Assembly (NCBI RefSeq): GCF_004001245.1
Contig: NZ_AP018724.1
Location: 2,038,501 to 2,102,500 of the forward strand
Length of the DNA stretch: 64,000 nucleotides
Source: Sulfurivermis fontis
GTDB lineage: Bacteria; Pseudomonadota; Gammaproteobacteria; Thiohalomonadales; Thiohalomonadaceae
Direction of reading: 5' to 3'
Within the stretch, counting starts at the first letter, position 1; each line of letters starts with the position of its first letter. The notes below the pieces were generated by a model. That model was not told the DNA's origin, did no database searches, and saw only the letters and a program-made list of their open reading frames with translations. Positions 1 through 27,412 of the stretch are shown in pieces. The position numbers and the translations under genes are program-made.

Positions 1-216
1 GGCAAAGACGTAGCGACCCGCTGGATCCATGTAGAACACCTCGCCCCCCGCCTGCACCTCGTACAGGCCGAGCACGCCCGCCTCGCGTATGGCGGTGACG
101 GTCCCTTGATCGCCCATCCAGGACCGCAGCGCCGCGCGTATTTCGGCTTCGCCCGCCTGGACGGCGCTCGCAGCGACGAGGAGCAGGGCGGCGAGTGGCG
201 CGCGCCGGCCGATCAT
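1..216 (-). CDS. dsbC: DsbC-type disulfide isomerase, N-terminal part (runs off the window)
   Basis: Translating the minus strand from the ATG at 216 gives a signal peptide (MIGRRAPLAALLLVAASAVQA) followed by the DsbC/DsbG N-terminal dimerisation domain. The segments GLYEVQ and YMDPAGRYVF are typical of that domain. The catalytic thioredoxin-fold half lies beyond the window edge. Family knowledge: DsbC is a periplasmic homodimer that reshuffles wrong disulfides. The ATG overlaps the dsbA stop (ATGATC), so the two are translationally coupled. The frame is open over the whole visible stretch. DsbG is possible, but the active site cannot be seen. Confidence 0.85.
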   Translation of the reverse strand, partial: MIGRRAPLAALLLVAASAVQAGEAEIRAALRSWMGDQGTVTAIREAGVLGLYEVQAGGEVFYMDPAGRYVFA

Positions 217-842
217 CGCCGCGCCTCCGCCACCAGGGCGTCCAGCACCGTCATCATCCGCTCGCGTCCGGCGGTCAGGGTCGGGCTGGTGAGGAAGGTG
301 CCGTTCACCACCACCGCGGGCACGCCGTCCAGTTGCAGCTGCTGGGTCAGCGCGCGCGCCTGACGCACCTTCGCGTCCACAGCAAAGGAATGGAACGCCG
401 CTTGGAAACGCGCCGGCTCGACGCCGTGTTCGGCGAAGAAGGCGGTCAGTGCCTTTTCATCGTTGAGGCGCCGCCGTTCCCGGTGGATCGCGTCGAACAG
501 GGCCGCGTGCATGCGCTCCGCCACCCCCAGGCCCTCGGCGGTGTAGTAAGCGCGGGCATGGATCGCCCAGCCCTCCCCCAATATGGCCGGCACGCGCCGC
601 CAGGCAACGGCATCCCCCTGCCGGGCGCGCCAGTGCTCCAGCAGCGGCTGCAGATTGTAGCAGTGGGGACAGCCGTACCAGAATATCTCCATGACCTCGA
701 TTTTTTGTTTATTCCCCACGTTCAGCGTCTGCCCCAGCCTGCGGTACTCGATTCCCTCGTCGATACCGTCGACCGCCGCTGCGCCCCCCGGCAACGTCAA
801 AACCAGTAACAATACTGCCCACCACGGTTTGTCCTTTTTCAT
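213..842 (-). CDS. dsbA: Thiol:disulfide interchange protein DsbA
   Basis: A 209-residue periplasmic thiol oxidase that introduces disulfides into exported proteins. An N-terminal signal peptide ends near residue 23 (GGAAA). The active site is C58-P-H-C61 in WYGCPHCYNL, the classical DsbA dipeptide, and the cis-proline loop is seen as DGVPAVVVNG. The open frame continues upstream to 1022, but the ATG at 842 (MKKDKPWW) gives a proper signal peptide. It is coupled to dsbC by a four-base overlap. The two probably help fold the cysteine-rich and haem proteins encoded in the next 20 kb; that role is inferred. Confidence 0.93.
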   Translation of the reverse strand: MKKDKPWWAVLLLVLTLPGGAAAVDGIDEGIEYRRLGQTLNVGNKQKIEVMEIFWYGCPHCYNLQPLLEHWRARQGDAVAWRRVPAILGEGWAIHARAYYTAEGLGVAERMHAALFDAIHRERRRLNDEKALTAFFAEHGVEPARFQAAFHSFAVDAKVRQARALTQQLQLDGVPAVVVNGTFLTSPTLTAGRERMMTVLDALVAEARR

Positions 843-1663: not shown

Positions 1664-2644
1664 TCACCCTCCGGTGTGCGCCATGGCGCGCAACGGCCGA
1701 CCCGCCGCGGCATCGAACCGATGGCGTAGCGGTTTGGCCTCCAGGGCCTGGTGAATCATCGATTCGAGCAGTTGATCATCATTGCCGTCCAGCGCCGGCC
1801 GCATTGACCGACTGGCGATATCGCCGAGACAGGGATACAACATGCCGTCAGCACCGACCCGCAAGCGGTTGCAGGTGTCGCAGAAGTGACGCGAAATCGG
1901 CGTGATGAAACCGACGCGGGTCTCGGAATCGGCCACACGCCAGTAGCGAGCCGGCCCGCCGCCGGGCATTACATCGGGCAGCAGATTGAACTCGCGCTCC
2001 AGGCGCTGGCGTACCTCATCCAGGTCCAGATATTGCGCAAACGCCGTCTGACCGCTTGCGCCCATGGGCATGGTTTCGATAAAGCGGATAGACAGGCCGC
2101 GCGCGACACAGTACTCCACCATGTCGGTCAGTTCGTCGTCGTTGAAACCGCGCATCACCACCGTATTGAGCTTGATCGGTGTCATGCCCGCGGCGGCGGC
2201 CGCGTCGATACCGGCCAGCACCGCATTCAATGCGTCTACACGAGCGCCGGTAATTGCGGCGAAGCGATCCGAACGCAGCGTATCGAGACTGACGTTGACC
2301 CGCATCACCCCTGCTAGGCGCAACGGGACGGCCAGCTCAGCCAACCGCGTTCCGTTGGTGGATAGTGAAAGGTCCTCGATACCGGGCAAGCGGGCCAAGC
2401 GCCGCGCGATATCGACGATGTCGTTCCGTACCAGCGGTTCGCCGCCGGTCAGGCGCAGATGGCTTACGCCCAGCCGCGCGAAGGCGGCACCGATGCGGAC
2501 GATGTCGTCCGCCGACAGCAGATCGTCCCATCCGCAGAACCCCCGATAACCGGCCGGCATGCAATAGCGACAACGCAGATCGCAGCGATCGGTGACCGAA
2601 AGGCGTAGATAGTCGATACGGCGGCCGTGAGCATCGATCAGCAT
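1664..2644 (-). CDS. moaA: GTP 3',8-cyclase MoaA (molybdenum cofactor biosynthesis)
   Basis: A radical SAM enzyme that converts GTP to 3',8-cyclo-GTP, the first step of molybdopterin synthesis. The N-terminal cluster motif is C21-X3-C25-X2-C28 in DRCDLRCRYCMP. The second [4Fe-4S] site is visible in CDTCNRLRV with the later YPCLGD cysteine. The protein ends in TGG, matching the conserved C-terminal Gly-Gly of MoaA. At 326 residues it has normal length. It lies 112 bases downstream of the small cytochrome gene, on the same strand as the molybdoenzyme cluster, and so probably supplies its cofactor. Confidence 0.95.
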   Translation of the reverse strand: MLIDAHGRRIDYLRLSVTDRCDLRCRYCMPAGYRGFCGWDDLLSADDIVRIGAAFARLGVSHLRLTGGEPLVRNDIVDIARRLARLPGIEDLSLSTNGTRLAELAVPLRLAGVMRVNVSLDTLRSDRFAAITGARVDALNAVLAGIDAAAAAGMTPIKLNTVVMRGFNDDELTDMVEYCVARGLSIRFIETMPMGASGQTAFAQYLDLDEVRQRLEREFNLLPDVMPGGGPARYWRVADSETRVGFITPISRHFCDTCNRLRVGADGMLYPCLGDIASRSMRPALDGNDDQLLESMIHQALEAKPLRHRFDAAAGRPLRAMAHTGG

Positions 2645-2756: not shown

Positions 2757-3074
2757 CTACTTCAGCTCAAGAATGTACTTCACCAGCGCCTTAACGTCGT
2801 CATCCTTCAGCGCCGGATTGGGCGGCATCGGGATCTCGCCCCACGCGCCCTTGCCGCCCGCCTTGATCTTGGTTGCCAGCTTGGCCGGCGCGGCGGTATC
2901 GCCGGAATACTTCTTCGCCACGTCTTTCCACCCCGGACCGACGATCTTGTTGTCGATGCCATGACAGGTCAAACAGTTGCTCTTCTTTGCCAGCGTCAGC
3001 GTCGCCTCGTCGGCCGCGGCAGCGCCGACCGCCAGCATTAATCCGATTGCCAAACTAAAAACGCGTTGCTTCAT
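2757..3074 (-). CDS. Small periplasmic c-type cytochrome (class I, c551/c552-like)
   Basis: A 105-residue mono-haem cytochrome. A signal peptide (residues 1-20, ending VGAAAA) precedes the haem site C34-L-T-C-H38. The axial methionine is M83 in EIPMPPNP, and the C-terminal helix DVKALVKYILELK is typical of class I cytochromes. The open frame extends far upstream, but only the ATG at 3074 gives a signal peptide. It starts 50 bases after the molybdoenzyme stop codon. The likely role is electron transfer to the reductase complex; that is inferred from position. Confidence 0.92.
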   Translation of the reverse strand: MKQRVFSLAIGLMLAVGAAAADEATLTLAKKSNCLTCHGIDNKIVGPGWKDVAKKYSGDTAAPAKLATKIKAGGKGAWGEIPMPPNPALKDDDVKALVKYILELK

Positions 3075-3124
3075 TTCGATTCTCGGTTGAAGGCGGCGCG
3101 GATCGCCCGCGCCGCCGTTTAGGG

Positions 3125-5818
3125 TTACGCGATATTGCGCGGCTTGAAGCTCATCAGGTTGAAGGCGTGCTTGTACTCCGACTCGCCCACTTTGCGCAGT
3201 ACGCCGCGGCCCAGCTTGTAGCGGTAGTTGTTGGTCACCGGGTCGGGGACAGCGTGCACCACCGCGTTGCCTTGGGAGCGCGGGTCGTTGAAGCCGGCTT
3301 TGGCCACGCCCTCGCGGATCTCGTCGGAGACCAGCGCCACCGCCTTGAACTTGCCCACCGTGGTCTTGATGTGGCCGTTCTTCATCAGGGTGTCGAAGAA
3401 CAGGTCGTCTTCCTGTACGCCGATGGGTTCGCCCACCTGCACATACACCGCGTCGTTGACGATCTCCACCCAGTCGCCCGACTCGATGCCGGCACGTTTG
3501 GCATCGTTGGGATGGATGATGATCGCCGGGAATGGCCAGCGTTGCGACAGGTAGGGCTTGCGATTGTCGTCGAAGCCCGACTGCCACATCTCGTTGAGGC
3601 GGCCGTTGGTGATCCAGATCTCGCCCTTCTCCTTGCGCGGCTGCACGGCGGCGTAGAACTGGCTCCAACCCTTGAAGCCCCACGGACTCTTGAGCAGGAT
3701 CGCCTTGCCGCTGTGGGTATTGAAGGCATACAGCCAATTGCGCTTGACCTCGACGCTTTCGATGTCCTCCCAGTCGTTGGCCGGGTCGTGCAGGCGCTGG
3801 GTGCCGATCAGCTTGTTGTCTTTCATGCGGATCGGGGTCTGGATGCCGTCGGTGCCGTAGCTGCGCAGCAGCTCCTGGCCCTTGACGCCATCGGCCTTGG
3901 CCTTGACCACCAGCGGGTGGTAGTTGAGCACGCCGTTGCGGCCGAAGCGCGCCGCCTCCTCGAAGATGTCGTTGGAGTCCTTCCAGCCATAACTGCCGTC
4001 GGCATCGAAGCCCATCTTCTTGGCGAACTGCTGCACCGCCCACCAGTCCGGCTTGGCTTCGCCCGGTGCGTCGTAGAACTTGGAGTACAGGCGCAAACGC
4101 CGCTCCGAGTTGCAGCGGGTGAAGTTGTCCTCGCCCCAGGTCGCCGCCGGCAGCACGATATCGGCGAAGTCGGTGCCAACCGGGCGTACCGGGTAGATGT
4201 CCGAATCGACCATCACCATGCCGCCGTTGTCGACACGCTTCTTCAACGTCTCGAAGATCGCCTGGCGATCGAGGCTCCGGATCTGGTGCGGGTTACCGGA
4301 GGTGAGCTCCGCCATGCGCCGCTCCAGCTCGTTGGAGGCCATCATGGAGGAGGTCCAGGTGGTGCCGAACACCCAGGCGAACTTCACCTCGCCGTTCATC
4401 ACCCAGCGGTCCAGGTTGAAGGACTTCTTGCGCCGCCCCGGATACTTCTCCGGCGAGAGCCAGCCGGAACCGCCGCCCGCGCCCATCATGCCGCGCTGGT
4501 GGCCGCCGCCGCGCGAGATCACGCGGCCCGGCCGGTTGCCCGCGCCGCAGATCAGGCCGAGACTGGCCAGCGAGGTGGTGTTCATGTAGTTGTTGGACCA
4601 GTAGTTGCCCTTCTCCAGCATGAACGATGTCTTGGGCCGGCTGCCGTCCGCCCTGGGCTTGGCGATCCACTCGGCCGCCTTTTGGATGTCCGCTGGATTG
4701 AGGCCGGTGATCTTCGCCGCCACATCCAGCTTGGATTCCTCCTGGGAGAGGATGAACTTCTTGTAGTCCTCCCAATCGGACTGCCAGGTACCCCAGGTGG
4801 TGCGCCACTGCCAGCCGGTGTTGCGTGTGCCGCGGCCGTAGCCGGAATCCACTTCCCAGGAGTTGGCGATCCACGTGTCGATGAACTCCTGGTCCTGCCA
4901 GCCGTTCTCGATGACGATGCGCGCCAGCGCCATGTGCAGCACGCTGTCGGTGCCGGGGATGATGCCCAGCCACAGGCCGCGCCCTTCCTTCTCGGCCCAG
5001 GCCGCGCCCATGGTCTTGTGCGGGGTGACGAAGATGAACTTCTTGTCGCCAGGCATCATCCAGGTGGTGAACAGCGTGGTCTTGGTTTCATACGGATCGA
5101 CGCCGGAGAGGAAGGCTACTTCGCAATCCGCCCAATCCTTGTAGCTGGCGGCGAAGGAGTCGATGCCCACGTCGTCCAGGCCCGTCGCGTCGTTGGTGTT
5201 GGAACACTTGTCGTGCGGCGCGATGGCCGGCGTGCCGATCGAGGTCATGCCCAGCTTGGTGATGGCATAGGTATTCTCAAAGTACTGGTAGGAGTACATC
5301 TTGATCGCCCAGGCGTGCTCGCCGTGCTTCTTGATGACGTACTTGGAAATATCGGCCATCACGTCGGTGGCCAGGTCCCACGACACCGGCGTCAGCTTGC
5401 CGTTGACCCGGATCATCGGGTGCTGCAGACGTTCACGGGTACGGTTTTCCGGGTTGAAGCACTTTTGCGCGATGGTGCCGCCGCGGATGGAATGGTTGCC
5501 GCCCATGTTGACCGCCTTGGTGTCGAAGTCGGGGATGACGACGACGTGGTGCGGCTTGCCATTGTGGGACACGATGTTGTGCTGCGACGGGCTGGCCCAC
5601 TTGCCCATCATCTGGCCGGTGGGGAAGTCGACGCCGTAGGCATTTTGCGACGCCTTCATGCCGCCATCCTTGCCGACCGGCCAGCGGTAGACCTTGTAGC
5701 CGCAGGCAATGGTGCAGTAGTCGCAGGCGGTGGTCAGCACATCTGCATTCTTAGGGGGAAGCGGTACCTGCTCCGCCGTGGCAACACCATAGGGATTGGA
5801 TTTGTCATTTGTACTCAT
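3125..5818 (-). CDS. idrA: Iodate reductase catalytic subunit IdrA (AioA-family molybdopterin oxidoreductase)
   Basis: An 897-residue DMSO reductase-family enzyme. The N-terminal iron-sulfur motif is C32-X2-C35-X3-C39 followed 70 residues later by S110, the CX2CX3CX70S pattern of the arsenite oxidase family that binds a [3Fe-4S] cluster. The C-terminal molybdopterin-binding region (WITNGRLNEMWQSG, IIIHPNDAKRAGIESGDWVE) also resembles AioA. Arsenite oxidase loci do not normally carry two di-haem peroxidases, whereas idrABP1P2 loci do, so I call it IdrA. At the region aligned by eye with the AioA substrate funnel it reads GGHQRGM. It has no signal peptide, as expected for a protein exported with its Tat-bearing partner. 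The ATG at 5818 follows GAGGAGAACGAC. An arsenite oxidase remains possible. Confidence 0.82.
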   Translation of the reverse strand: MSTNDKSNPYGVATAEQVPLPPKNADVLTTACDYCTIACGYKVYRWPVGKDGGMKASQNAYGVDFPTGQMMGKWASPSQHNIVSHNGKPHHVVVIPDFDTKAVNMGGNHSIRGGTIAQKCFNPENRTRERLQHPMIRVNGKLTPVSWDLATDVMADISKYVIKKHGEHAWAIKMYSYQYFENTYAITKLGMTSIGTPAIAPHDKCSNTNDATGLDDVGIDSFAASYKDWADCEVAFLSGVDPYETKTTLFTTWMMPGDKKFIFVTPHKTMGAAWAEKEGRGLWLGIIPGTDSVLHMALARIVIENGWQDQEFIDTWIANSWEVDSGYGRGTRNTGWQWRTTWGTWQSDWEDYKKFILSQEESKLDVAAKITGLNPADIQKAAEWIAKPRADGSRPKTSFMLEKGNYWSNNYMNTTSLASLGLICGAGNRPGRVISRGGGHQRGMMGAGGGSGWLSPEKYPGRRKKSFNLDRWVMNGEVKFAWVFGTTWTSSMMASNELERRMAELTSGNPHQIRSLDRQAIFETLKKRVDNGGMVMVDSDIYPVRPVGTDFADIVLPAATWGEDNFTRCNSERRLRLYSKFYDAPGEAKPDWWAVQQFAKKMGFDADGSYGWKDSNDIFEEAARFGRNGVLNYHPLVVKAKADGVKGQELLRSYGTDGIQTPIRMKDNKLIGTQRLHDPANDWEDIESVEVKRNWLYAFNTHSGKAILLKSPWGFKGWSQFYAAVQPRKEKGEIWITNGRLNEMWQSGFDDNRKPYLSQRWPFPAIIIHPNDAKRAGIESGDWVEIVNDAVYVQVGEPIGVQEDDLFFDTLMKNGHIKTTVGKFKAVALVSDEIREGVAKAGFNDPRSQGNAVVHAVPDPVTNNYRYKLGRGVLRKVGESEYKHAFNLMSFKPRNIA

Positions 5819-5832
5819 GTCGTTCTCCTCGC

Positions 5833-6399
5833 TCAGGCGCGACCGGCCAGGTTGTCGGCGTAGCCGTAGATCAGACCCAGGACGCCCACCGCGTAGATGT
5901 CGTCGCCCTTCACCTCCAGCAGGATCTGCGGCAGGCTCTCGGTGCCGTGGCCCGACACCACCATGCCGTGCTTGGTGAGATCGAAGGTGGTCAGGTGCAG
6001 CGGACAGGGTCCCAGCATCTGGTGCTGCGCCTTGTAGCTGGCCTGCAGCGGGCCGCCCATGTGGGTGCACTGCTGGTTGAAGGCCACCACGTCCTTGCCG
6101 GCGCCGACGCCGGCACCGGCCGGCGTGCCGAGCTTGACCAGAATGTTCTGCACATCCGGGAACGGGTAGGCGAACTCCACCGGCACCCCCTGTTTCAGCG
6201 CCGACAGCGAACCTACCTTCTGGCGCGGGTAGGACTTGACGGCGGCCGCCTGGGCCAGGCCCGGCACGCCGCCGATGGCGGCGACGGCCATCACCGCGCC
6301 GCCCGCCAGCAGGAACTGGCGCCGGCTCATGCAGGCGCGCCCGCCGTGGTCGTGATGCTCGGCGGTGTGTTCCGCCTTGATGACGATCTTCTCTTTCAT
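5833..6399 (-). CDS. idrB: Rieske subunit IdrB with Tat signal
   Basis: A 188-residue Rieske [2Fe-2S] protein that passes electrons to or from the molybdoenzyme. A twin-arginine signal (SRRQFLLAGG, residues 25-34) exports the folded pair. Cluster ligands are C111 and H113 (CTHMGG) and C132 and H135 (CPLHLTTFD). The two cysteines that form the stabilising disulfide in bc1-type Rieske proteins are Gly116 and Leu134 here. The segment GMVVSGHGTESLPQI is characteristic of the arsenite/iodate enzyme small subunit. A GGAG lies just before the ATG. The idrA start is 14 bases downstream. Confidence 0.85.
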   Translation of the reverse strand: MKEKIVIKAEHTAEHHDHGGRACMSRRQFLLAGGAVMAVAAIGGVPGLAQAAAVKSYPRQKVGSLSALKQGVPVEFAYPFPDVQNILVKLGTPAGAGVGAGKDVVAFNQQCTHMGGPLQASYKAQHQMLGPCPLHLTTFDLTKHGMVVSGHGTESLPQILLEVKGDDIYAVGVLGLIYGYADNLAGRA

Positions 6400-6408
6400 G
6401 TCAGTCTC

Positions 6409-7542
6409 CTATTTCTTCACGGCCAGCGGCGCGTAGGGCGGCAGCTTGGGCGGGTCCATGAGCAGCGGTTCATCCATGCTCAGGCTTTCCAGGAACGCGA
6501 CCAGATCCTGTTTCTCGGCATCGGTGAGCCCCAGCGGCTTGAGCAGCGGCGACTTGTTCGGCACAGCCTCGCCACCGCCCACGTTGTAGAAGTCCACCAC
6601 TTCTTCCAGGGTGTAGAAGATGCCGTCATGCATGTACGGCGCGGTGTATTTCAGCTCGCGCAGGGAAGGCGTACGGAACTTGTGCTTGTCCTTCGGGTTC
6701 CTGGTCACGTTGTAGTAGCCGTAGTCGTAGTTCGCACCGCGGTAAACCTTCTCCGTCGTCCCCTTTTGGTAGTGTTCCCAGCGATGGGTGATCTGATACA
6801 GCGGCTCGGTCTGGAACACCTCGTTCTCCGGCACACCCAGGGCGTAGAACTTCTGGTCCGAAGCCAACGGGCCGTTGTGGCACTGGATGCAGCCGGCCTT
6901 GCCGTTGTACAGCTTCATGCCGCGCAGCTGCGAGGCGGAGAGCGCCTCCTTGTCGCCGTTCATGTAGCGGTCGAAGGGCACCTTCTTGGCATCGGAGACG
7001 ATGGTGCGCTCGAAGGCGGCAATGGCGCCGTAGGCCTGGGTCATGCGCGGCCACTCGGCGCCGTACACCTTCTTGAAGCGCTCGACGTATTCCGGGATGA
7101 AGCGCAGCCGCATCTCCATCAGCGAAGGGTCACCGTTACCGGCGACGTTGCCTTCGGCGGCTGCGGGCGCCTGGGCTTCGAGGCTGGTGACGTTGCCTTC
7201 CCAGAACAGCTTGTTGTAGTAGGCGGAGTTGAGCACCGTCTGCGAATTGCGCCAGTGCTGGGTGCCGGGATAGCCGCGCGATATCTCGCCGCCGTCGCCC
7301 CAGCCCTTGGAGGGCTCGTGGCACACCACGCAGGGCGAGGAGGCGTCGCCACCCAGGCGGCTGTCCCAGAACAGCATCTTGCCCAGTTCGATCTTCTCCG
7401 GCGTCATCGGGTTGTCCGCCGGGATCGGTACCGGCGGCAGGGGTGCCAGCGGCGGAAACTTATCGCCTGCTACGGCGGTGCCGCCTACCATCAACAGTGC
7501 CACGGCGGAGGCGATTGTGTTGCGTGAAATTATCTTGTTCAT
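6409..7542 (-). CDS. Di-haem cytochrome c peroxidase-family protein, IdrP type (first copy)
   Basis: A 377-residue periplasmic protein of the MauG/CcpA family with two CXXCH haem sites, CVVCH (residues 71-75) and CIQCH (218-222). A signal peptide covers about residues 1-26. A GTG at 7548 would add two residues, but AGGAG is spaced eight bases from the ATG at 7542, which I prefer. Iodate reductase loci encode two such proteins, IdrP1 and IdrP2, thought to remove H2O2 or reduced-oxygen iodine intermediates formed during iodate reduction. Which of the two this is cannot be decided here. It ends nine bases before idrB. Confidence 0.85.
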   Translation of the reverse strand: MNKIISRNTIASAVALLMVGGTAVAGDKFPPLAPLPPVPIPADNPMTPEKIELGKMLFWDSRLGGDASSPCVVCHEPSKGWGDGGEISRGYPGTQHWRNSQTVLNSAYYNKLFWEGNVTSLEAQAPAAAEGNVAGNGDPSLMEMRLRFIPEYVERFKKVYGAEWPRMTQAYGAIAAFERTIVSDAKKVPFDRYMNGDKEALSASQLRGMKLYNGKAGCIQCHNGPLASDQKFYALGVPENEVFQTEPLYQITHRWEHYQKGTTEKVYRGANYDYGYYNVTRNPKDKHKFRTPSLRELKYTAPYMHDGIFYTLEEVVDFYNVGGGEAVPNKSPLLKPLGLTDAEKQDLVAFLESLSMDEPLLMDPPKLPPYAPLAVKK

Positions 7543-7554
7543 GTTCACCTCTCC

Positions 7555-8679
7555 TCAGTTCTTGCCGAATTGCCGCGGCTGATAGGCGGGCAGGTCAGGC
7601 TTCGCCATCACCACCGCATCACCGGACAACGACAGCAGGAACGCCTTCAGATCGCTCTTCTCTGCCGCGCTCAGGCCCAGCGGCTTGAGTTCGCCGCCCT
7701 TGCCGCCGCCCCGGTTGTAGAACTCAAGGACGTCGTCCAATGTCGCCAACATGCCGTTGTGCATGTACGGTGCCGTGTACTTCAGCTCGCGCAACGATGG
7801 CGTAGCGAACTTTCCCTTGTCGGCCGGGTTCTTGGTGATGGCGTAACGGCCCACGTCTACATGGGTATTCATGTAGTTGGGCATGCCGTGGGTGGAGTAG
7901 TGGCGCGCCATGGTGATGTGGCGCAAAGGCTCGGCCGTCACTGCCGGATTTTCCGGCACGCCGAGGCGATGGAACGAGTTGTCCGTGAGCATCGGCCCGT
8001 TGTGGCAGGAGATGCACTGGGCCTTGCCCTTGAACAGCGCCAGACCGCGCTTGGCCTCGTCGGAAATGGCGCCCTGGTTCCCCTTCAGGTAATTGTCGAA
8101 GGGCACATTCTGCGAGGTAAGCGACTTGACGAATTCGCCGACCACGTTGAACACGCGCATGCCGTTGATGTCGTCCTTGCGAAACTTCTGCCACATGGCG
8201 TTGTATTCCGGCACCTGCTTCAAGCGCTCCTGCATCAGGCGCCCATCCATGTTCATCAGGTGCGCCTCGGTGATCTCGTTGCGCACTAGGGTGCCGAGGT
8301 CATTGCCGTCGAGCTGGCCATCCCACTTGAAGTACTTCTTGAAGCGGGCGTTGACCAGTCCCGGCGTATTGCGGAAGTGCTCCGATGCCGGATAACCCTT
8401 GCCGAGCGGTGCACCGTCGCCCCAGCCCTTGGCCGGGTCGTGGCAGGTGGCGCACGAGATGCCGGCGTCGCCGGACAGGCGCTCGTCAAAGAACAGGTAC
8501 TTACCCATTGCCGCCATGTCGGCGTTGTATTTACTCTCGGGCAATGGTGCCAAATCCGGCACGGCCGCCTGTGTCTTGGTGTCTCCATTGGCCACGGCGC
8601 AACCCGCGAGGATGACGCCAGCGGCGAGGCCAAGGGCACCGAGCGCCCGTGACAACCTGGTCAGTCTGAATGTCGACAT
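7555..8679 (-). CDS. Di-haem cytochrome c peroxidase-family lipoprotein, IdrP type (second copy)
   Basis: A 374-residue homologue of the adjacent peroxidase. Haem sites are CATCH (76-80) and CISCH (222-226), and both proteins share TPSLRELKYTAPYMH near the C terminus. This copy has a lipobox (LAGC, Cys27), so it is probably membrane-anchored on the periplasmic side, unlike its neighbour. The ATG at 8679 follows GGGGATAT. Tandem, diverged copies next to idrAB match the idrP1/idrP2 arrangement. The likely role is detoxification of a peroxide or hypoiodite product; this is family knowledge plus inference. Confidence 0.85.
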   Translation of the reverse strand: MSTFRLTRLSRALGALGLAAGVILAGCAVANGDTKTQAAVPDLAPLPESKYNADMAAMGKYLFFDERLSGDAGISCATCHDPAKGWGDGAPLGKGYPASEHFRNTPGLVNARFKKYFKWDGQLDGNDLGTLVRNEITEAHLMNMDGRLMQERLKQVPEYNAMWQKFRKDDINGMRVFNVVGEFVKSLTSQNVPFDNYLKGNQGAISDEAKRGLALFKGKAQCISCHNGPMLTDNSFHRLGVPENPAVTAEPLRHITMARHYSTHGMPNYMNTHVDVGRYAITKNPADKGKFATPSLRELKYTAPYMHNGMLATLDDVLEFYNRGGGKGGELKPLGLSAAEKSDLKAFLLSLSGDAVVMAKPDLPAYQPRQFGKN

Positions 8680-8716
8680 ATATCCCCCTACTCAGTTGTG
8701 TTCCCGAACGGGAAAC

Positions 8717-9439
8717 TCACTTGCTGAACTCAAACGCGGCAGTGGCGGCTGCACCACCCTTGATACTCACCCGCGCGCTCTTCTCCCCCAGTACCGGATG
8801 CCATGCCTTCACCTCGTAGTCGCCGTCAGGCAATCCATCGATCGTGAAGGAACCATCCGCCTTGCTGACTACCGCATACGGGTTCTCGGCTGCGAAGGCC
8901 CAGCCGTGCATGAAGTCGTGGGCGTCGCACTCGACTTTGATCACGTTGGCGCGCTTGACCTTGATCGGCTGCTTGAGCTCACCCTTGTCCGGCTGGCCGA
9001 CGTTGAACATGGTGCGGCGCACCGTGCCGATGATTTCGTAGGTATGGATGTTGTGCAGCACCGGGTCGGAGTTGCGGACGGTGAGATCGGCACCCTTCTG
9101 CACCACCAGCACCTCGGGGGCGAAGGCGCAGCCCTTCTGGTCGAGTAACGGGGCAGCGAGTTCACCCCAGGGCTTGCCCTTCTCCGCCTTGGCGACGTAA
9201 ACAACGGCACCGGCCAATTTGCCGTTGCTGGCATTGACCTCGACGATCTGGCGGTTGCCAGTACCGCATACAGCGTTGTCCTTGGTGATCGGCAGGGCCT
9301 TCGGCGCGGGCACCGCGCCCGCGAAACTCACACTGCCGGTCACCTTGCCACTGCCGGCGGCCGTGGCCTCGTAAGCGTGGGAAAGGGGCGCGAGCGCAAG
9401 TCCGCTCAGCGCAACGGCACAAATGGTCAACTTGTTCAT
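8717..9439 (-). CDS. Periplasmic cupredoxin with C-terminal carboxypeptidase-regulatory-like domain
   Basis: A 240-residue exported protein (signal peptide 1-22, ending SHA). The central part is plastocyanin-like, with candidate type 1 copper ligands H129 (VLHNIH), C171, H174 and M177 (CDAHDFMHGW). The C-terminal 50 residues (DGSFTIDGLPDGDYEVKAWH) form a carboxypeptidase regulatory-like beta sandwich. AGGAG is flush against the ATG at 9445, so I take the ATG at 9439 as the start. It is the first gene of the run leading into the idr genes, 37 bases ahead of the lipoprotein peroxidase, and may be an electron carrier for the enzyme. Its substrate partner is not known. Confidence 0.8.
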   Translation of the reverse strand: MNKLTICAVALSGLALAPLSHAYEATAAGSGKVTGSVSFAGAVPAPKALPITKDNAVCGTGNRQIVEVNASNGKLAGAVVYVAKAEKGKPWGELAAPLLDQKGCAFAPEVLVVQKGADLTVRNSDPVLHNIHTYEIIGTVRRTMFNVGQPDKGELKQPIKVKRANVIKVECDAHDFMHGWAFAAENPYAVVSKADGSFTIDGLPDGDYEVKAWHPVLGEKSARVSIKGGAAATAAFEFSK

Positions 9440-9491
9440 GGGCATCTCCTGCTGGTTCGTAACGAAAGGTCATCAAGCCTTATTCACCACC

Positions 9492-9510
9492 AGAGCAATG
9501 GCTGTGCCAA
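9492..9510 (-). promoter_or_regulatory. Sigma-54 promoter for the cupredoxin-idr operon
   Basis: The minus strand reads TTGGCACAGCCATTGCTCT. The invariant GG (9508-9507) and GC (9496-9495) are ten bases apart, and both boxes (TGGCAC and TTGCT) match the consensus TGGCAC-N5-TTGCW. Transcription would start near 9483, giving a leader of about 45 bases before the ATG at 9439. Sigma-54 promoters need an NtrC-type activator; one is encoded at 21355-22740. Confidence 0.75.
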
Positions 9511-9750
9511 CGCCACAAATGGCGATCCATGCACCGAAAATCCCTTTTGTTATGCCGGATTATTGGAAATCGCATGGGCGCGCCCTCTCATCAGGCGGGC
9601 ATTTTCTTACCGGCAGTGAATAAAAATTGACCGTCACTCGTCGGCCCGCCATGGCAGCAGGGCTGCACAGGCGGGCCGAACAGCGGCGATGTCCCGCGGC
9701 ACGGCTTTTGCTGCACCTTTATGCATTGCAGAAATGTGTGGAGAACAGAC

Positions 9751-11184
9751 ATGCGTTGGGACAAAGACGTCGTCGTGGTCGGTGCGGGAATTTCCGGTCT
9801 TGCGGTGGCGCATACCCTGGCCGGACATGGGCGCGACGTAACGCTCATCGAGCGGGACACCAGGGTCGGCGGCCGCATGCACACGGAAGCGCGCGGTGGC
9901 TTCCTGCTGGAACACGGCCCCAACGCGCTGATCGCACCGGCTGCGGGAGCGGAGACGCTGATCGCGGCTGCGGGTCTGACCGAGCAGCGCATCATGCGCG
10001 GCGCGGAGGTGCGTCATCGCTATCTTGCACGCGATGGCCACCTTCATGCCCTGCCCATTGATCCGGCAGGATTTTTCCTGTCGTCCTTCTTCACCCTGCG
10101 CGGGCGCCTGCGGCTGCTGGCGGAACCCTTCATCACCGCCCGGCACGACGATGAATCCATCGCGGCCTTCATACGCCGACGCTTCGGCCGCGAATTGCTG
10201 GATTACGTCTTCGATCCGCTGGTGGGCGGCCTGTATGCCGGCGATCCGGAACGTTTGAGCATCGATGCCGTGTTTCCCCATCTGAAGGCGATGGAACGCA
10301 ATCATGGCTCGGTATTGCGCGGCGTGCTGGCGCGGCACCGCCTCGGCCGCGCCTTCGATCCGCAGCGTCGCAGCCTGTTCTCCCTGCGCCATGGCCTCGG
10401 CTCCCTTCCAGCCGCCCTGGCTCAGGGACTGGGTCTGCGGGTGCTTACCGGCACCCGTTTGGACGCCATATCACCGTTGCCGGACGGCGGCTTCCGGCTG
10501 CGCCTGAGCGGCCAGGGCCGCGACACCACCCTGAGCGCCGCCCAAGTGGTGCTCGCCCTTCCCGCCTATGCCGCCGCGCGCGTGCTTGCGCCGCTGGATG
10601 ACACGACCGCCGCACGCCTCGCGGGTATCGATCATCCGCCACTGGCGGTGGCCTTTCTCGGCTATCGGCGCGACACCATCGAGCATCCGCTGGACGGGCT
10701 GGGCGCGCTCATGCCCAAGGCGGAGAAACGCGACGTGCTGGGTATGCTTTTTTCGTCCACCCTGTTTAACGGGCGCGCCCCGCAGGGCCATGCCCTGCTT
10801 ACCGCTTACGTGGGCGGCACGCGGCAACCGGACTTGGCCGGGCTACCGCGCGAAGAATTGCTGCAACGGGTGGAACACGAAGCACGCGATCTGCTGGGCG
10901 CACGTGCCGCACCGGTGCTGCGCCACGTGCGCTACTGGCAACGCTGTCTGCCGCAACCGGGAATGGACCACGCGCAGTGCATCGCCGCCGTGCGTGCACT
11001 GGAGCAGCAATGGCCTGGGCTGCATATCACCGGCAATTATCTGGGGGGGGTGTCGACGGTAGCCTGCATAGATGCCGCGATGACCACCGCAGAGCGCGTC
11101 ATGGTACAAGGCATGCCGCGGCGTACGGACGGCATGGATGATGTCACGGCGGGTCGACCCTCGGTCGACGTCAGAGCCTCGTGA
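9751..11184 (+). CDS. hemG: Protoporphyrinogen oxidase (HemY type)
   Basis: A 477-residue flavoprotein that oxidises protoporphyrinogen IX to protoporphyrin IX, the penultimate step of haem synthesis. The N-terminal FAD-binding motif is VVVVGAGISGLAVAHTL, followed by RVGGRMHTE. The C-terminal FAD contact GNYLGGVSTVACIDAA (near 425-440) is typical of the oxygen-dependent HemY family. The ATG at 9751 is preceded by GGAGAACAGAC. It lies between two haem-rich operons, both transcribed away from it, so it may serve cytochrome assembly. The symbol hemY would be equally valid. Confidence 0.9.
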   Translation: MRWDKDVVVVGAGISGLAVAHTLAGHGRDVTLIERDTRVGGRMHTEARGGFLLEHGPNALIAPAAGAETLIAAAGLTEQRIMRGAEVRHRYLARDGHLHALPIDPAGFFLSSFFTLRGRLRLLAEPFITARHDDESIAAFIRRRFGRELLDYVFDPLVGGLYAGDPERLSIDAVFPHLKAMERNHGSVLRGVLARHRLGRAFDPQRRSLFSLRHGLGSLPAALAQGLGLRVLTGTRLDAISPLPDGGFRLRLSGQGRDTTLSAAQVVLALPAYAAARVLAPLDDTTAARLAGIDHPPLAVAFLGYRRDTIEHPLDGLGALMPKAEKRDVLGMLFSSTLFNGRAPQGHALLTAYVGGTRQPDLAGLPREELLQRVEHEARDLLGARAAPVLRHVRYWQRCLPQPGMDHAQCIAAVRALEQQWPGLHITGNYLGGVSTVACIDAAMTTAERVMVQGMPRRTDGMDDVTAGRPSVDVRAS

Positions 11185-11853: not shown

Positions 11854-12558
11854 CTACGGGCGTTCCGTCCAACCACGCCCGGCGGCAAGACCTGCCAACG
11901 CTTGGCGATCCAGCAGATATACCAGGCGATCATCGACCTCGATCACGCGGTTTTGGGCCAGGCGGCCGAATACCCTGCTGACGGTTTCCGGGGTCAGGTT
12001 CAAGTGGCGGGCGATGTCGTTGCGCGGCATGGGCAAATCCAGCGGTGTAGTGCCGTCGTCTTGCGCTTGGCGCGTCGCCAGTTCCAGCAAAAGGGCGGCA
12101 ACCCGTGCCTCGCTCGGTTTACCCAGACGCAAGGTGGCGGTACGCAGCCGCTTCAGCTCCTGCGAATACGCCGAAATCATGGTCAAGGCGAACCCACTGC
12201 GTTCGATGATGCGATTGCGCAACAGGGGATAAGGGACGCGGCACAGGCGGCTTTCCATCGTGGCTGTGGCCACGCCGGGTGCAGGAATGCCCCCGGCCAG
12301 TTCGCCCAAGCCGATGATCTCGCCGGGCAGATAGAACGCGACCCAGGGATGGCACACATTCCGTGCGGCGAGCTTGATACAGCCCGTCCTGACCACAAAC
12401 ACCGCGCCCGTCATCATCAACCGCTCACCCTCGCGCACCCGGCGTTCGCCGATGCACACCGTGCCGCAGCCGCCGTACGGGCAGGTGGCATCGAAGGGGC
12501 AAAGCTTTCGTGCGGGCTGAACGGCGTTTAATTGCGTCACCGGAATGATCTTACCCAT
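11854..12558 (-). CDS. Crp/Fnr-family transcriptional regulator with N-terminal cysteine cluster
   Basis: A 234-residue regulator with a cyclic-nucleotide-binding-like sensor fold (about 40-130), a dimer helix (RSGFALTMISAYSQELKRL) and a C-terminal helix-turn-helix (NDIARHLNLTPETVSRVFGR). The N terminus holds C20, C26, C31 and C35 (KLCPFDATCPYGGCGTVC). Their C-X5-C-X4-C-X3-C spacing differs from classical FNR, though an Fe-S cluster sensing O2 or NO is plausible. The open frame begins at a TTG at 12579, but the ATG at 12558 with GAGG ahead is preferred. It overlaps the radical SAM gene by eight bases, making it the last gene of the CydA-like operon. Confidence 0.88.
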   Translation of the reverse strand: MGKIIPVTQLNAVQPARKLCPFDATCPYGGCGTVCIGERRVREGERLMMTGAVFVVRTGCIKLAARNVCHPWVAFYLPGEIIGLGELAGGIPAPGVATATMESRLCRVPYPLLRNRIIERSGFALTMISAYSQELKRLRTATLRLGKPSEARVAALLLELATRQAQDDGTTPLDLPMPRNDIARHLNLTPETVSRVFGRLAQNRVIEVDDRLVYLLDRQALAGLAAGRGWTERP

Positions 12559-13807
12559 GGGGACGGCCTCGCATGGCAAACGGCATGGACGGGCGGTTGG
12601 CCTGCATAAACGCCGCAGTCACTCGCGACAGGCCCGCCTGCGCCGCTTTCTCCTCTATACGGGCACGCACCCTTCCGCGCACGAAGGCGGGGATACGCTC
12701 CAGCCAAACCCTTGCATCGTCGTCCCAGCTGATCGTTGTCTGTGGCGCAACCGGTGCCGATTCCGGTGCCGCACCGAACGGTTTGACGTAGCGGCATTTG
12801 CCGTCTTCCGCCATGAGATCGCCGCCGGTCGCCAACGCCCGCGCACGGCAGCCACCGCAACTGTGGCGGTAATCGCAATCGCCGCATTTGCCCATCGGCA
12901 ATTCGTTGCGCAGGCGGCCGAAGGCAGCGCCGTGCTGCCAGATATCCGCCAGGGGCCTGCTGCGCAGACTCCCCACGGTGGCGGGAATATAGGGACACGG
13001 GGTGACCTCGCCCTGCGGGGTGATGCGCAGATAGGTGCGCCCGGCTAGGCAGGCGCTGGACCAGCTCGCGTAACCGTCCACGGTTTCTCCGGCATGCAGG
13101 CCGAGCAGACGGCGCGCATAGGGCGCGCAACGGGCGCGGATAGTGAGATGGGAACGCCCCTGCTGCAACCGCAGGATGTCCGCCAGGGTAGCCTCATAGG
13201 TTTCGGGCGTAAGGTCGGTCTGCGTCACACCACGGCCGGTGCAGACCAGGAAGAACAAATTGAGGGCCATGGCGCCGAGATGCGCCGAGAAATCCGCCAG
13301 GGCTTCCAGTTCATGGCGGTTTTCCTCGAACAGCGTCGTCTGGACCAACACGCCGAGTCCCGCATCCTGGGCCGCACGCAGGCCGGCGACCGCCCGCGCC
13401 CAGGCGCCGGGCACGCCGCGCAACTGGTCGTGAAACTCGGGGGTCACCGAGTCCAGGCTGATGCCGACGCCCGCCGCCCCCGCCTCGCGCAAGGACTGCG
13501 CACGGGCGGCATCGAGCAGCGTGCCGTTGGTTCCGATCACCGGCATCAGGCCACCCTGCGCCGCCTGCGCAACCAGTTCATTCAGGTCGCGCCGCAGCAG
13601 CGGCTCGCCGCCGGTCAACACCAACATCGCCCCCGGTGCCACGGCCGCGATTTGCGCCATAACATCCAGCGCCTCGGCCGTGCTCAACTCATCCGGCGCC
13701 TCGATGCGGCGCTGCACCGCATCGAGATAGCAGTGGCTGCAAGCCAGGTTGCACACTCGGGTCAGGTTCCACGAGATAAGCTGGGGCTGCGGTGCTGCGT
13801 TGTCCAT
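12551..13807 (-). CDS. Radical SAM/SPASM protein with C-terminal PCP_red domain (NirJ/AhbD-like)
   Basis: A 418-residue radical SAM enzyme. The cluster motif is C19-X3-C23-X2-C26 (RVCNLACSHCYLDA), followed by LTGGEPLLRRDL. A SPASM-type region carries many cysteines (CLAGRTYLRI, TPCPY, CGDCDYRHSCGGCRA), as in haem-modifying NirJ and AhbD. The last 65 residues (ISWDDDARVWLERIPAFVRG) form a PCP_red domain, first named from protochlorophyllide reductase, and the same module occurs twice in the preceding gene. It may modify a haem or a peptide for the oxidase encoded upstream; the substrate cannot be deduced. The ATG at 13807 lies five bases after the upstream stop. Confidence 0.85.
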   Translation of the reverse strand: MDNAAPQPQLISWNLTRVCNLACSHCYLDAVQRRIEAPDELSTAEALDVMAQIAAVAPGAMLVLTGGEPLLRRDLNELVAQAAQGGLMPVIGTNGTLLDAARAQSLREAGAAGVGISLDSVTPEFHDQLRGVPGAWARAVAGLRAAQDAGLGVLVQTTLFEENRHELEALADFSAHLGAMALNLFFLVCTGRGVTQTDLTPETYEATLADILRLQQGRSHLTIRARCAPYARRLLGLHAGETVDGYASWSSACLAGRTYLRITPQGEVTPCPYIPATVGSLRSRPLADIWQHGAAFGRLRNELPMGKCGDCDYRHSCGGCRARALATGGDLMAEDGKCRYVKPFGAAPESAPVAPQTTISWDDDARVWLERIPAFVRGRVRARIEEKAAQAGLSRVTAAFMQANRPSMPFAMRGRPHG

Positions 13808-13812: not shown

Positions 13813-15240
13813 TCAGCCGCTCAGCATTTCCGTCACCGCACGGGTGGCGGCGTCCACCATCGCCTCGGTGACCACCGTCACCCCCTGGCCGCGCGCCATC
13901 TTCTCGATGCGCAACCGGGCGTGGTCGCGTACCGAGTCCGGCATCGGCTCCAGACGCGCCAAGGCCGCCGGTTCCCATGTCAGAGGCGGGAAAGCCTCTT
14001 TTCCCTGCTTCTTCGGCGGGCCGTTGCCGCTGAAGGGACACTTGCCGCCGGCTGCGGGCATGCCAGGCATGCGGGTGAGCACCGCGTCGATAACATCGGA
14101 AGTCACCACGGTATGGCCGCGCTCAATGGCATGTTTGATGATCGCCTTGCGCGCCATGCCCTGAACGAAGCCGGGCACGCGCGCCATGCGCGCCTCCGCC
14201 TCCTCGGTCCAGCTCATGGTGGTCTCGGCCACCTGCTCCATGGGCGGCTCGAAGCACTGCGCCGACAGCAGCAGATTGCAGGGCGCCCGGCGCAGCAGCA
14301 ATTCAGTGGCGCTGCCCAGGTCCATGCCGGCCTCGGAATGGACGCCGATGCGGCCGAGCACCAGCAGCCAGGGCCGCGCCTCGCGTGCAAACTTCAGTAT
14401 CTGATCCCCGGCCTTGCCGGCCAGCAGATGGGTAGCCAGTTCTATCCCCGCGTCGCCGGCTAGGCGTTTTGCCACATCGAGATGCCCCTGATAAATTTTA
14501 GCCAGGCCGGAATCGATGATGTCCTCGTGCAGCTTTTCCTGCTCCTCGAAGCGGAACACGCTCGCCGCCTCCGGCGACAACACCTTGGCGATGCTGTTGA
14601 AGGCGACGTAATGGAAGTGCGGATCGAATACCGCTACCGCCACCACCGGTCGCTGAAATATCTTCGCCAACTCGAAGGCGGTCATCAGCCCACCGTAGGA
14701 CTGGGGACTGCCGTCCAGCGCGACCATGATGGCAGCATCGTCGCATGCCTCGATTTCACGCACCACCAGTACATCGCGGTCGATGCGCCGCGCCACCCGC
14801 TCGCACACGCTGCCCAGTTGGGATGACTCCACCGCGCCCAGTCCCAGCGCCCCCATCACCACCAGGTCGGCGTCACCCGCACCGATGTCCTGCACCAGCG
14901 CCTGCCAGTTCTTGCCCTCCAGCGACACGCCGCGGCCGGCAAGCCCTGCCGTCGCGCAGCGCGTATGGAATACGTCGAGATAGGAGTCGGAAATGACGCG
15001 CAGGCCGCGCGTGATGAGGTCGTCGTGGATGTCGCGCTGCTCGACGAGCTTTTCCTCCTTGCGATAGGGTTCGGGCAGACCGCCCTCCATCTGGCGAAAA
15101 CGCCGGTCATGCAGTTTGGCGGCGTAGACATGGCTGCCAGTGAGTTGCGCACCGGTCGCCTTGGCCAACTCGATGGCCAGATCGACACCGCGCAGCGACA
15201 ACGGCGAATTGTCCAGGGGCAGATAGATGGAACCGTACAT
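13813..15240 (-). CDS. Tandem universal-stress protein fused to two PCP_red domains
   Basis: A 475-residue cytoplasmic protein. Residues 1-160 and about 165-305 are two UspA-like domains (LDLA-type start MYGSIYLPLDNSPLS; nucleotide-binding-like ends VMGALGLGAVESSQLGSVCE and LGRIGVHSEAGMDLGSATEL). Residues 320-375 and 410-475 are two PCP_red-like repeats (TMSWTEEAEARMARVPGFVQ and LTWEPAALARLEPMPDSVRD), joined by a linker with a lone KCPF motif. The fusion sits between the SCO1-like gene (12 bases upstream) and the radical SAM gene (five bases downstream), so it is part of the oxidase operon. Its function is unknown. Confidence 0.85.
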   Translation of the reverse strand: MYGSIYLPLDNSPLSLRGVDLAIELAKATGAQLTGSHVYAAKLHDRRFRQMEGGLPEPYRKEEKLVEQRDIHDDLITRGLRVISDSYLDVFHTRCATAGLAGRGVSLEGKNWQALVQDIGAGDADLVVMGALGLGAVESSQLGSVCERVARRIDRDVLVVREIEACDDAAIMVALDGSPQSYGGLMTAFELAKIFQRPVVAVAVFDPHFHYVAFNSIAKVLSPEAASVFRFEEQEKLHEDIIDSGLAKIYQGHLDVAKRLAGDAGIELATHLLAGKAGDQILKFAREARPWLLVLGRIGVHSEAGMDLGSATELLLRRAPCNLLLSAQCFEPPMEQVAETTMSWTEEAEARMARVPGFVQGMARKAIIKHAIERGHTVVTSDVIDAVLTRMPGMPAAGGKCPFSGNGPPKKQGKEAFPPLTWEPAALARLEPMPDSVRDHARLRIEKMARGQGVTVVTEAMVDAATRAVTEMLSG

Positions 15241-21111: not shown

Positions 21112-21133
21112 CTAATGCAGGCAACGTGCCAGC
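21112..21133 (-). promoter_or_regulatory. Sigma-54 promoter for the CydA-like operon
   Basis: The minus strand reads GCTGGCACGTTGCCTGCATT. GG at 21130-21129 and GC at 21118-21117 are ten bases apart. The -24 box TGGCACG is perfect, and the -12 box is CTGCA against the consensus TTGCW, one mismatch. Transcription would start near 21105, about 34 bases before the ATG at 21071. Confidence 0.65.
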
Positions 21134-21207: not shown

Positions 21208-21237
21208 CACCGGTCACTTTATAACCGCACCGGTCAA
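21208..21237. promoter_or_regulatory. Tandem CACCGGTCA boxes, candidate activator-binding sites
   Basis: CACCGGTCA occurs at 21208-21216 and again at 21228-21236, exactly 20 bases apart, so both fall on the same DNA face. They lie about 80-105 bases upstream of the sigma-54 promoter at 21112-21133. That is the usual distance for enhancer sites of NtrC-type activators, and such a gene begins nearby. Each box contains the palindrome ACCGGT. Binding is inferred. Confidence 0.5.
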
Positions 21238-21354
21238 TATATTACCGACGGAAGCGCTGCTCTTAGCGGATGCAGAGCGCCCATGAACTGCACGCCCACG
21301 CGGAACGCGGGAATGCACGCATGTTTCATGCCTTCGCTGCTTTTGCTTCGTATG

Positions 21355-27254: not shown

Positions 27255-27412
27255 AGTGTCTCCTCACGACAAAAGTTCTGACCGCTGGCAGCCGGTGTGT
27301 CAGGTGGGTTCCGAAACGGCGGCAGCTCTTGATAGATGGCGTAGTGCGGCCGGTTATTCCCCGGAAATGAACCTGCCCAAAATACCCCACTGGGGCGGGG
27401 GATGCATTATCC

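Follow-up and report, generated by a model that had tools for sequence, protein, structure and literature searches.

The window, a 64,000-nucleotide stretch of the Sulfurivermis fontis genome, carries on its minus strand at 2757–9445 the run of genes that the preliminary description had reported: a molybdoenzyme with an AioA-family motif, a Tat-type Rieske protein and two di-haem proteins (Table 1). The motif of the molybdoenzyme was found as C34-X2-C-X3-C-X70-S. The Tat and Rieske domains of the second protein both scored above the Pfam cut-offs, and it has the Tat signal and CXHX18CX2H motif by which the Rieske subunit of the idr iodate reductase is recognized, with C111, H113, C132 and H135 invariant in an alignment of 80 rows. 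The two di-haem genes, each encoding two CXXCH motifs, lie immediately 5′ of idrBA. Clade placement, motifs and this arrangement all agree with the proposed identification of the set as idrA-idrB-idrP1-idrP2. The order with the peroxidases first was confirmed, but it is not unusual: the published order is P2, P1, B, A, with idrP1P2 always 5′ of idrAB (PMC10989891; PMC8801600). The cytochrome c, moaA and dsb genes are all on the minus strand, as had been stated, but a plus-strand ORF (947–1414) sits between the latter two.

Table 1. Features of the idr locus and its surroundings, in window coordinates.
Feature	Position	Strand	Remarks
dsbA-like protein	213..842	-	within island
moaA, molybdenum cofactor synthesis	1664..2644	-	TIGR02666 above cut-off
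small c-type cytochrome	2757..3074	-	one CXXCH; candidate electron donor
idrA, catalytic molybdopterin subunit	3125..5818	-	897 aa; [3Fe-4S] motif CX2CX3CX70S; motif and tree
idrB, Rieske [2Fe-2S] subunit	5833..6399	-	Tat signal; Pfam
idrP1, di-haem CCP_MauG-family protein	6409..7548	-	Tyr321 at Met-ligand place, Ala at catalytic Glu place
idrP2, di-haem CCP_MauG-family protein	7555..8679	-	Tyr321 at Met-ligand place, Leu at catalytic Glu place
cupredoxin with further beta-rich region	8717..9445	-	first gene of idr operon
sigma-54 -24/-12 site	9494..9509	-	5′ of cupredoxin
enhancer-like palindrome	9596..9612	-	
flavin amine-oxidase family protein	9721..11184	+	protoporphyrinogen-oxidase-like by eye
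Crp/Fnr-type regulator	11854..12531	-	
radical SAM/SPASM protein	12551..13807	-	PCP_red domain
universal stress protein	13813..15240	-	PCP_red domains
SCO1/SenC-type protein	15253..16170	-	
di-haem cytochrome c fused to EB_dh domain	16173..17663	-	
mono-haem cytochrome c	17660..18415	-	hydrophobic N-terminal segments
di-haem cytochrome c	18415..19305	-	terminal hydrophobic segments
CydAl, cytochrome bd subunit I-like membrane protein	19302..21071	-	without quinol-loop and GRQPW motifs
sigma-54 -24/-12 site	21116..21131	-	5′ of CydAl
two tandem enhancer-like palindromes	21211..21247	-	
sigma-54-dependent response regulator	21355..22740	-	NtrC/AtoC type
sensor histidine kinase	22733..25012	-	AtoS type
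yeeE-like direct repeat, right-hand copy	25984..27265	-	99.1% over 1282 bp vs left copy

The tree check that had been proposed for the 897-residue protein was run, and the protein grouped with IdrA, outside the AioA clade. It lies inside a 29-row clade (SH-aLRT 100) that contains Denitromonas iodatirespirans IR-12, to whose IdrA it is 76% identical, and that includes confirmed iodate reducers. The five AioA rows, to which it is ≈30% identical, form a separate clade (support 100). Arsenite oxidase AioAB has the same cofactor motifs and likewise a Rieske partner. Were the core an AioAB with chance neighbors, this would account for the NCBIfam arsenite oxidase models that match above their cut-offs (443 vs. 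359 bits and 115.4 vs. 95.65), and for His204, Arg438 and His442, which are common to the window IdrA and AioA. However, 14 alignment columns switch between the two groups, including D205 and R444, which in AioA are Asn and Glu, respectively, and P1/P2, which adjoin the window IdrAB, were found beside none of the five AioA loci within the stretches fetched, in line with the earlier remark that arsenite oxidase loci are without these peroxidases. An arsenite oxidase at this locus is thus highly improbable.

The idr block extends past 9439 on the minus strand to 25012, and the gene at 9721–11184 is the only one on the plus strand. This added part, up to ≈25 kb, opens with a two-component system and ends in the cupredoxin that heads the idr operon. 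The suggestion of a self-contained iodate respiration module is backed at the level of sequence, but the module would be larger than supposed. No Crp/Fnr-type regulator gene was detected at the remaining extended loci, and the best NCBIfam scores of the radical SAM/SPASM protein were to the NirJ2 and AhbD haem-synthesis models, under the cut-off. Like the known idrABP1P2 islands of Pseudomonas sp. SCT, Denitromonas IR-12 and Azoarcus DN11, the locus has the P2-P1-B-A order, the motifs, a sigma-54-type two-component system and the optional cytochrome c and moaA. Unlike them, it has ten genes separating idrP2 from the regulator; the remaining extended loci, without the Crp gene, have nine. A further difference is that the promoter is followed by the cupredoxin instead of by idrP2. 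Judged by its sequence, the core locus is of an already known kind, and the novelty lies in its surroundings. The block is a ≈30-kb insertion flanked by 99% identical yeeE copies, the left one lying beyond the window (genome 2033614–2034895), and an empty insertion site was found in three congeners.

Two operons in the window, cupredoxin-idrP2P1BA and CydAl-cytochromes-SCO, are preceded by matching sigma-54 sites and palindromes. Together these give a promoter/enhancer code, TGGCACR-N4-YTGC plus CGGTCA-N5-TGACCG; the strict patterns run on the window and genome were tailored to fit the two window sites. The sigma-54 site was present 5′ of the cupredoxin gene in 16/16 rows (13 genomes, own included) and 5′ of CydAl in 12/12 rows and four of four further loci (all 14 genomes, own included); the first scan covered CydAl rows above 900 bits and cupredoxin rows above 250 bits, and the remaining rows were scanned later. 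The background was 2/170 for eight control genes in all and 126/4000 for random windows. Among distant loci, the site preceded 0/9 CydAl genes (≈50% identity) and 1/22 cupredoxin rows. The palindrome, with at least 10/12 matches, occurred in 30/40 upstream regions of these operons (33/44 with added loci), counted in the same sequences from which it was derived, as against 4/100 control upstream regions and 255/6000 random windows. The two operons are apparently under one switch. A site 5′ of idrP2 was present in 14 of 16 minimal loci, Denitromonas IR-12 among them, vs. none of the ten extended loci, where the promoter is followed by the cupredoxin; the leading cupredoxin had been rightly singled out for comparison. 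Derivation of the minimal loci from extended ones by deletion would fit this promoter swap, as would the opposite course; with eight changes of CydAl on the tree, either direction is possible.

The extended block was found as 14 stretches in 13 other genomes, complete or interrupted by contig ends, and shares a contig with idr in eight; in one of the 13 genomes (L222), CydAl contains an internal stop. In several gammaproteobacteria, the cupredoxin and CydAl genes are located away from idr. A set of 274 genomes from the class, the own one among them, contains six with both IdrA and CydAl, three with IdrA only and four with CydAl only (Fisher p 3e-8); a cupredoxin match was found in 9/9 IdrA genomes vs. 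19/265 others (Fisher p 3e-10); and IdrA and CydAl distances correlate (r 0.71, 16 loci), a value reached in 19 of 5000 permutations. These Fisher and Mantel tests ignore kinship, although the six co-occurring genomes have six different family codes. A CydAl search of 48 IdrA genomes, behind 50 of the 80 loci, gave no match in 30, which include Denitromonas IR-12, Roseovarius azorensis and Notoacmeibacter marinus, all of them confirmed reducers; therefore, iodate reduction as such does not require CydAl.

CydAl shares PF01654 with cytochrome bd subunit I and the bd-like OR-N proteins, and its H68, H232 and E155 fall at alignment positions that, in canonical CydA, are presumably occupied by haem ligands or residues close to them. 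It differs from subunit I in that the quinol-loop K..A.E, at the expected place, and GRQPW were each absent from all 25 CydAl rows, whereas both were present in 8/8 canonical CydA, whose frames were chosen with the quinol-loop motif in mind, and in that no CydB was found among the island genes scanned. In the two motifs, CydAl departs from a canonical quinol oxidase cytochrome bd. A structure prediction from two sequences (mean pLDDT 43.5) was set aside. The module might still be an electron-input arm, passing electrons from quinol through the cytochromes and cupredoxin to IdrAB. Such an arm would close the gap noted for Denitromonas, whose cluster is without a quinone oxidoreductase (PMC8692401); co-regulation with idr and the presence of possible carriers speak for it, but the loss of both quinol-related motifs makes it somewhat unlikely. 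OR-N-type bd-like CydA is regarded as an O2 reductase that oxidizes cytochrome c (PMC10839748). The CydAl-cytochrome-SCO module could accordingly be an independent microaerobic oxidase that neighbors idr in one lineage only, as the four of ten class genomes that have CydAl but no IdrA and the distant CydAl loci without a sigma-54 site might indicate. We find this quite unlikely, because in the close group the sigma-54 sites and the palindrome match those of idr, CydAl and IdrA co-occur even when unlinked, and their divergence is correlated. The most likely reading, though held tentatively at a little under even odds, is a cytochrome c-linked, bd-like membrane arm that would reduce O2 or some other small oxidant encountered or formed in the course of iodate reduction.

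In the cupredoxin, H131, C173, H176 and M179 were invariant in a 21-row alignment that omitted three low-scoring, non-adjacent rows (L067, L081 and L089). This His-Cys-His-Met set in a predicted cupredoxin fold indicates a probable type 1 cupredoxin; Foldseek was applied to this protein only. The idea that the cupredoxin and the cytochrome c alternate as donors was rejected: Fisher p was 0.04 in the beta/gamma clade, but phylogenetically independent pairs did not support it.

IdrP1 and IdrP2 share the CCP_MauG domain with the CCP, MauG and MbnH di-haem enzymes. The catalytic Glu of bacterial cytochrome c peroxidases was present in none of 138 aligned IdrP sequences, and the methionine that is the sixth ligand of the electron-transfer haem is replaced by Tyr in 135. 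In 25 family controls, Glu was kept in 21 and Met in 20. The controls came from 30 loci (L104–L133), which gave 24 proteins after removal of the own P1, the own P2, a duplicate of the own CCP and three without a frame with two haem motifs; the own CCP made 25. On both counts, the proteins depart from a canonical bacterial cytochrome c peroxidase. By alignment, the Tyr sixth ligand is MauG-type, but IdrP1/P2 have no equivalent of the catalytic Glu of MauG (Glu113, as named in the title of a reference cited in PMC6405878). These replacements call into question the published role of IdrP as H2O2 peroxidases. That they are ordinary H2O2-scavenging enzymes, as both published models have them, agrees with family membership and the two CXXCH motifs, with the inter-haem Trp retained in 131/138 and the distal Gln in 74/75 P1, and with a conserved acid four residues beyond the Glu place that might substitute for it; set against the replacements and the controls, we regard it as doubtful. 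Among solved structures, the best relative of P1 was 6e1c, annotated ‘Di-heme enzyme’, which we take to be MbnH. A more speculative and rather unlikely possibility is that IdrAB yields hypoiodous acid, on which IdrP1/P2, with their MauG-type Tyr and without the Glu that serves in H2O2 cleavage, would act directly, giving iodide by reduction, or iodide and O2 by dismutation, while the co-regulated CydAl-cytochrome complex would be a dedicated membrane reductase for the resulting O2 or oxidant, so that iodate reduction finishes enzymatically. If true, this would supersede both published models (H2O2 scavenging with Cld, and abiotic disproportionation).

Taken together, we put at roughly 0.8 the probability that this is a ≈30-kb, horizontally inserted island for iodate respiration, the function we infer for it, with its own regulators and membrane arm. 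In the mechanism that we propose, the kinase would sense iodate or its effect, and the regulator would bind the palindrome and turn both operons on. IdrAB, exported via the Tat signal of IdrB, would use its Mo site to reduce iodate in the periplasm, receiving electrons by way of the cupredoxin, the small cytochrome c or both, and IdrP1/P2 would handle a reactive by-product.

A survey of 145 genomes described idr as a four-gene core with poorly conserved surroundings (PMC8692401). The inserted island, which is conserved and seems to be co-regulated, supplements that core with a promoter/enhancer code and with a membrane respiratory arm and a cupredoxin; the latter two, if confirmed, would be previously unrecognized partners of iodate respiration. 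If this is true, iodate respiration gains a definable regulon and named candidate electron-transfer partners, and the role of IdrP1/P2 becomes directly testable.

In their sequence motifs, the products of the four core genes agree with those of the described idr set, as the preliminary description had claimed for idrA-idrB-idrP1-idrP2. The molybdoenzyme, IdrA, carries the cofactor motif C34-X2-C-X3-C-X70-S; the Rieske protein, IdrB, has a Tat signal and C111-X-H113-X18-C132-X2-H135; and the di-haem proteins IdrP1 and IdrP2 (P1 and P2) have two CXXCH motifs apiece. The cytochrome c and moaA genes said to follow the core on the same strand were both present. The peroxidases-first order, singled out earlier for comparison, is the published one: P2, P1, B, A is the order in Ca. 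Methylomirabilis iodofontis, SCT and IR-12 (PMC10989891, excerpt), and idrP1P2 is described as always upstream of idrAB (PMC8801600, excerpt). Denitromonas (L023) has kinase-regulator-P2-P1-B-A-cytochrome c, and known optional neighbours of idr are cytochrome c551, moaA and a two-component system (PMC8801600; PMC10149662, excerpts). The window genome is a single contig of 3,246,214 bases.

Genes of the idr operon and of the larger block around it, in window coordinates
Feature	Position	Strand
Cupredoxin-like, two di-haem, Rieske, 897-residue molybdoenzyme and cytochrome c genes	2757-9445	-
moaA, after these genes		-
Beyond the cupredoxin: Crp regulator, radical SAM, universal stress protein (Usp), SCO, three cytochrome c, cytochrome bd subunit I-like protein (CydAl, PF01654), sigma-54 response regulator, kinase	to 25012	-
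Flavin oxidase, sole + strand gene of the larger block		+

Relatives were collected by a scan of genome contigs, of which the best 80 of 475 encoding loci were retained. In a quick IQ-TREE analysis (LG+G4) of 84 IdrA and 5 arsenite oxidase (AioA) rows, the AioA rows formed one clade with support 100 and the window protein fell with IdrA, which answers the question of placement raised earlier. Sequences from a Thiothrix plasmid and from a Rhodocyclales MAG group with it, within a 29-row clade (support 100) containing Denitromonas iodatirespirans IR-12, in which idrA knockout abolished growth on iodate (PMC8692401, excerpt). The iodate reducers Roseovarius azorensis and Notoacmeibacter marinus (PMC11445184, excerpt) belong to the same IdrA clade, farther out than the 29 rows. 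Fourteen alignment columns switch between the IdrA and AioA groups. Among these are D205 and R444, which are Asn and Glu in AioA, while H204, R438 and H442 are common to IdrA (84/84) and AioA (5/5); we take all five positions to line the AioA substrate site. NCBIfam arsenite oxidase models exceed their cut-offs on IdrA and IdrB (3125-6399), so automatic annotation of such loci is likely prone to misnaming; an Azonexus plasmid IdrA copy is annotated 'arsenate reductase (azurin)'.

Fifty of the best 80 idr loci (of 475) come from 48 genomes, and in these CydAl was sought at E<=1e-30; 18 gave a match, with identities of 76-84% in 13. Fourteen stretches around the CydAl of those 13 genomes share one gene order: kinase, regulator, CydAl, cytochromes, Usp, followed, where the contig reaches, by radical SAM, the reversed flavin oxidase, cupredoxin and P2. 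One stretch (L218) goes no further than the first cytochrome; L216 and L226 gave no detectable SCO, though both extend to its place; the L222 CydAl has an internal stop; and in L031/L230 the two halves of the block are swapped. Block and idr lie on one contig in 8/13 genomes, and the contig ends inside in 5/13. Among the extended loci compared (idr plus the CydAl block), the Crp gene was seen only in the window. No CydAl match at E<=1e-30 was obtained in three genomes of confirmed reducers, Denitromonas (L023), Roseovarius (L048) and Notoacmeibacter (L049). One Rhodocyclales MAG has two copies of the CydAl module (L223 and L224).

CydAl retains two histidines and one glutamate aligned with canonical CydA. 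It has neither the quinol-loop motif nor GRQPW, presumably canonical CydA motifs, and both are found in 8/8 canonical CydA from related genomes. For OR-N enzymes, cytochrome c is the probable electron source (PMC10839748, excerpt). The predicted cupredoxin structure (mean pLDDT 90.5) best resembles a NirK chain, then amicyanin, purple cupredoxin and plastocyanin (cupredoxin domains), and H131, C173, H176 and M179 are invariant across 21 rows. We found no paper linking idrA or iodate with a cupredoxin, and in the text of the matches listed iodate reduction was nowhere joined with MauG, quinol oxidase or bd; figure 5 of PMC8692401 (excerpt) presents idr neighbourhoods.

Of 274 genomes sampled evenly across the class, the window genome among them, 9 have IdrA (E<=1e-150), 10 CydAl (E<=1e-40) and 6 both; the cupredoxin (E<=1e-8) is present in 28, including all 9 with IdrA; these tests do not remove kinship. 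In some of these genomes cupredoxin and CydAl are distant from idr, with relatives of the block's Usp, radical SAM and flavin-oxidase genes close by. Over 16 loci the distances of IdrA correlate with those of CydAl (r 0.71; 19/5000 permutations as high), as they do over 13 close loci (r 0.56; 13/5000), kinship again not being removed.

Two -24/-12 sites were first seen in the window, and other loci were then scanned for at least 10/12 matches to TGGCACG-N4-TTGCW, with GG and GC obligatory. Such sigma-54 sites lie upstream of the cupredoxin in 16/16 rows (13 genomes, three loci counted twice), of CydAl in 12/12 (one locus twice), and of idrP2 in 14/16 minimal loci (without the CydAl block) and 0/10 extended ones. 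Controls gave 0/26 for idrA, 0/27 for idrB, 0/27 for P1, 0/20 for Usp, 0/22 for radical SAM, 0/17 for cytEB (a cytochrome c with an EB_dh domain), 0/16 for cyt296, 2/15 for SCO and 126/4000 for random windows. Four further extended CydAl loci, which fell below the score cut of that scan, all had the site (L222 scored on the frame containing the start), giving 14/14 genomes. Relaxed to fit both window sites, the pattern had no further occurrence in the window (expected 0.13). By gene and locus type, these counts place the promoter before the first idr gene, which in extended loci is the cupredoxin, the leading gene already flagged in the preliminary description. The site was found in none of nine distant CydAl loci (~50% identity) and in one of 22 distant cupredoxin rows, so the promoter code belongs to the close group. 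This absence favours an alternative in which the CydAl-cytochrome-SCO module is an independent oxidase merely neighbouring idr; we consider that unlikely, if slightly less so than before. For a horizontally inserted, co-regulated iodate respiration island, our preferred reading, the probability is correspondingly lowered from 0.82 to about 0.8.

A palindrome, CGGTCA-N5-TGACCG, first came to notice through the over-representation of this inverted repeat in the upstream regions examined. It matches at least 10/12 positions upstream of the cupredoxin in 8/13, CydAl in 8/11 and minimal P2 in 14/16, against 4/100 control upstreams and 255/6000 random windows; at 9/12 or better the counts are 37/40 against 24/100 and 1444/6000. 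Fitted to the two window sites, it occurs genome-wide only at both promoters and one other place, and its reversed control twice. Because the sequences that supplied the motif overlap those tested, it carries less evidential weight than the sigma-54 sites.

When 75 P1 and 63 P2 were aligned with the window genome's own canonical peroxidase (L101), using what we take to be its catalytic positions, in agreement with Nitrosomonas chain 1iqc numbering, the catalytic Glu was replaced by Ala, Gly or Ser in 75/75 P1 and by Thr, Phe or Leu in 63/63 P2. The Met ligand position is Tyr in 73/75 and 62/63, a new acid stands four residues past the Glu place (Asp/Glu in 71/75 P1, Asp in 63/63 P2), and the distal Gln is retained in 74/75 P1 and just 7/63 P2. 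Among 25 CCP_MauG proteins from related genomes, 21 retain Glu and 20 Met; three of four Tyr-type controls keep Glu, and the fourth is P2-like. A P2-like di-haem protein with Glu lost and a Tyr ligand (L117, G006:C317:730-1155) comes from a family member where IdrA was sought (E<=1e-100) and not found. Tyr-His ligation in MauG and BthA accompanies bis-Fe(IV) chemistry, and BthA peroxidase turnover is unaffected by Tyr loss and requires Glu (PMC6405878, excerpt). Tyr alone is therefore no argument against IdrP peroxidase activity, and the missing Glu does argue against it. Hypoiodous acid would be a plausible alternative substrate.

Other idr loci differ in setting. The Azonexus hydrophilus plasmid NZ_CP151407.1 (L010, 5303-26679) has a minimal cluster with kinase, regulator, cytochrome c and moaA, only a few genes from Tn7-like TnsA, AAA ATPase and TnsD-type transposition genes, a possible vehicle for idr transfer. 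Two genomes (L026 and L045; L035 and L071) each carry an additional IdrA that has diverged further (68-69% to the window); P1 and B accompany it, and P2 was not detected within the stretch covered. The Vibrio sp. THAF190c megaplasmid (L011, 7163-12658) carries a P2-P1-B-A cluster with no annotated features (IdrA identity 48%), with a small cupredoxin-like gene, by eye, on the opposite strand at 12729-13172.

In the window genome, two yeeE-like copies in direct orientation (1282 bp, 99.1%) flank ~29.6 kb holding the entire block. Three congeners have a single yeeE copy, both outer flanks alignable and the block absent; congener L241 has a different ~3.7 kb stretch nearby. IdrA was found at E<=1e-100 in none of the 19 other family genomes searched. 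No integrase or transposase turned up in the Pfam scan of the island genes; the 3.6 kb adjoining the window on its left was inspected by eye. Left of the island (L097, 6432-8603) are genes resembling, by eye, soxX, soxY and soxA; sulfur oxidation and iodate may be coupled in this host.
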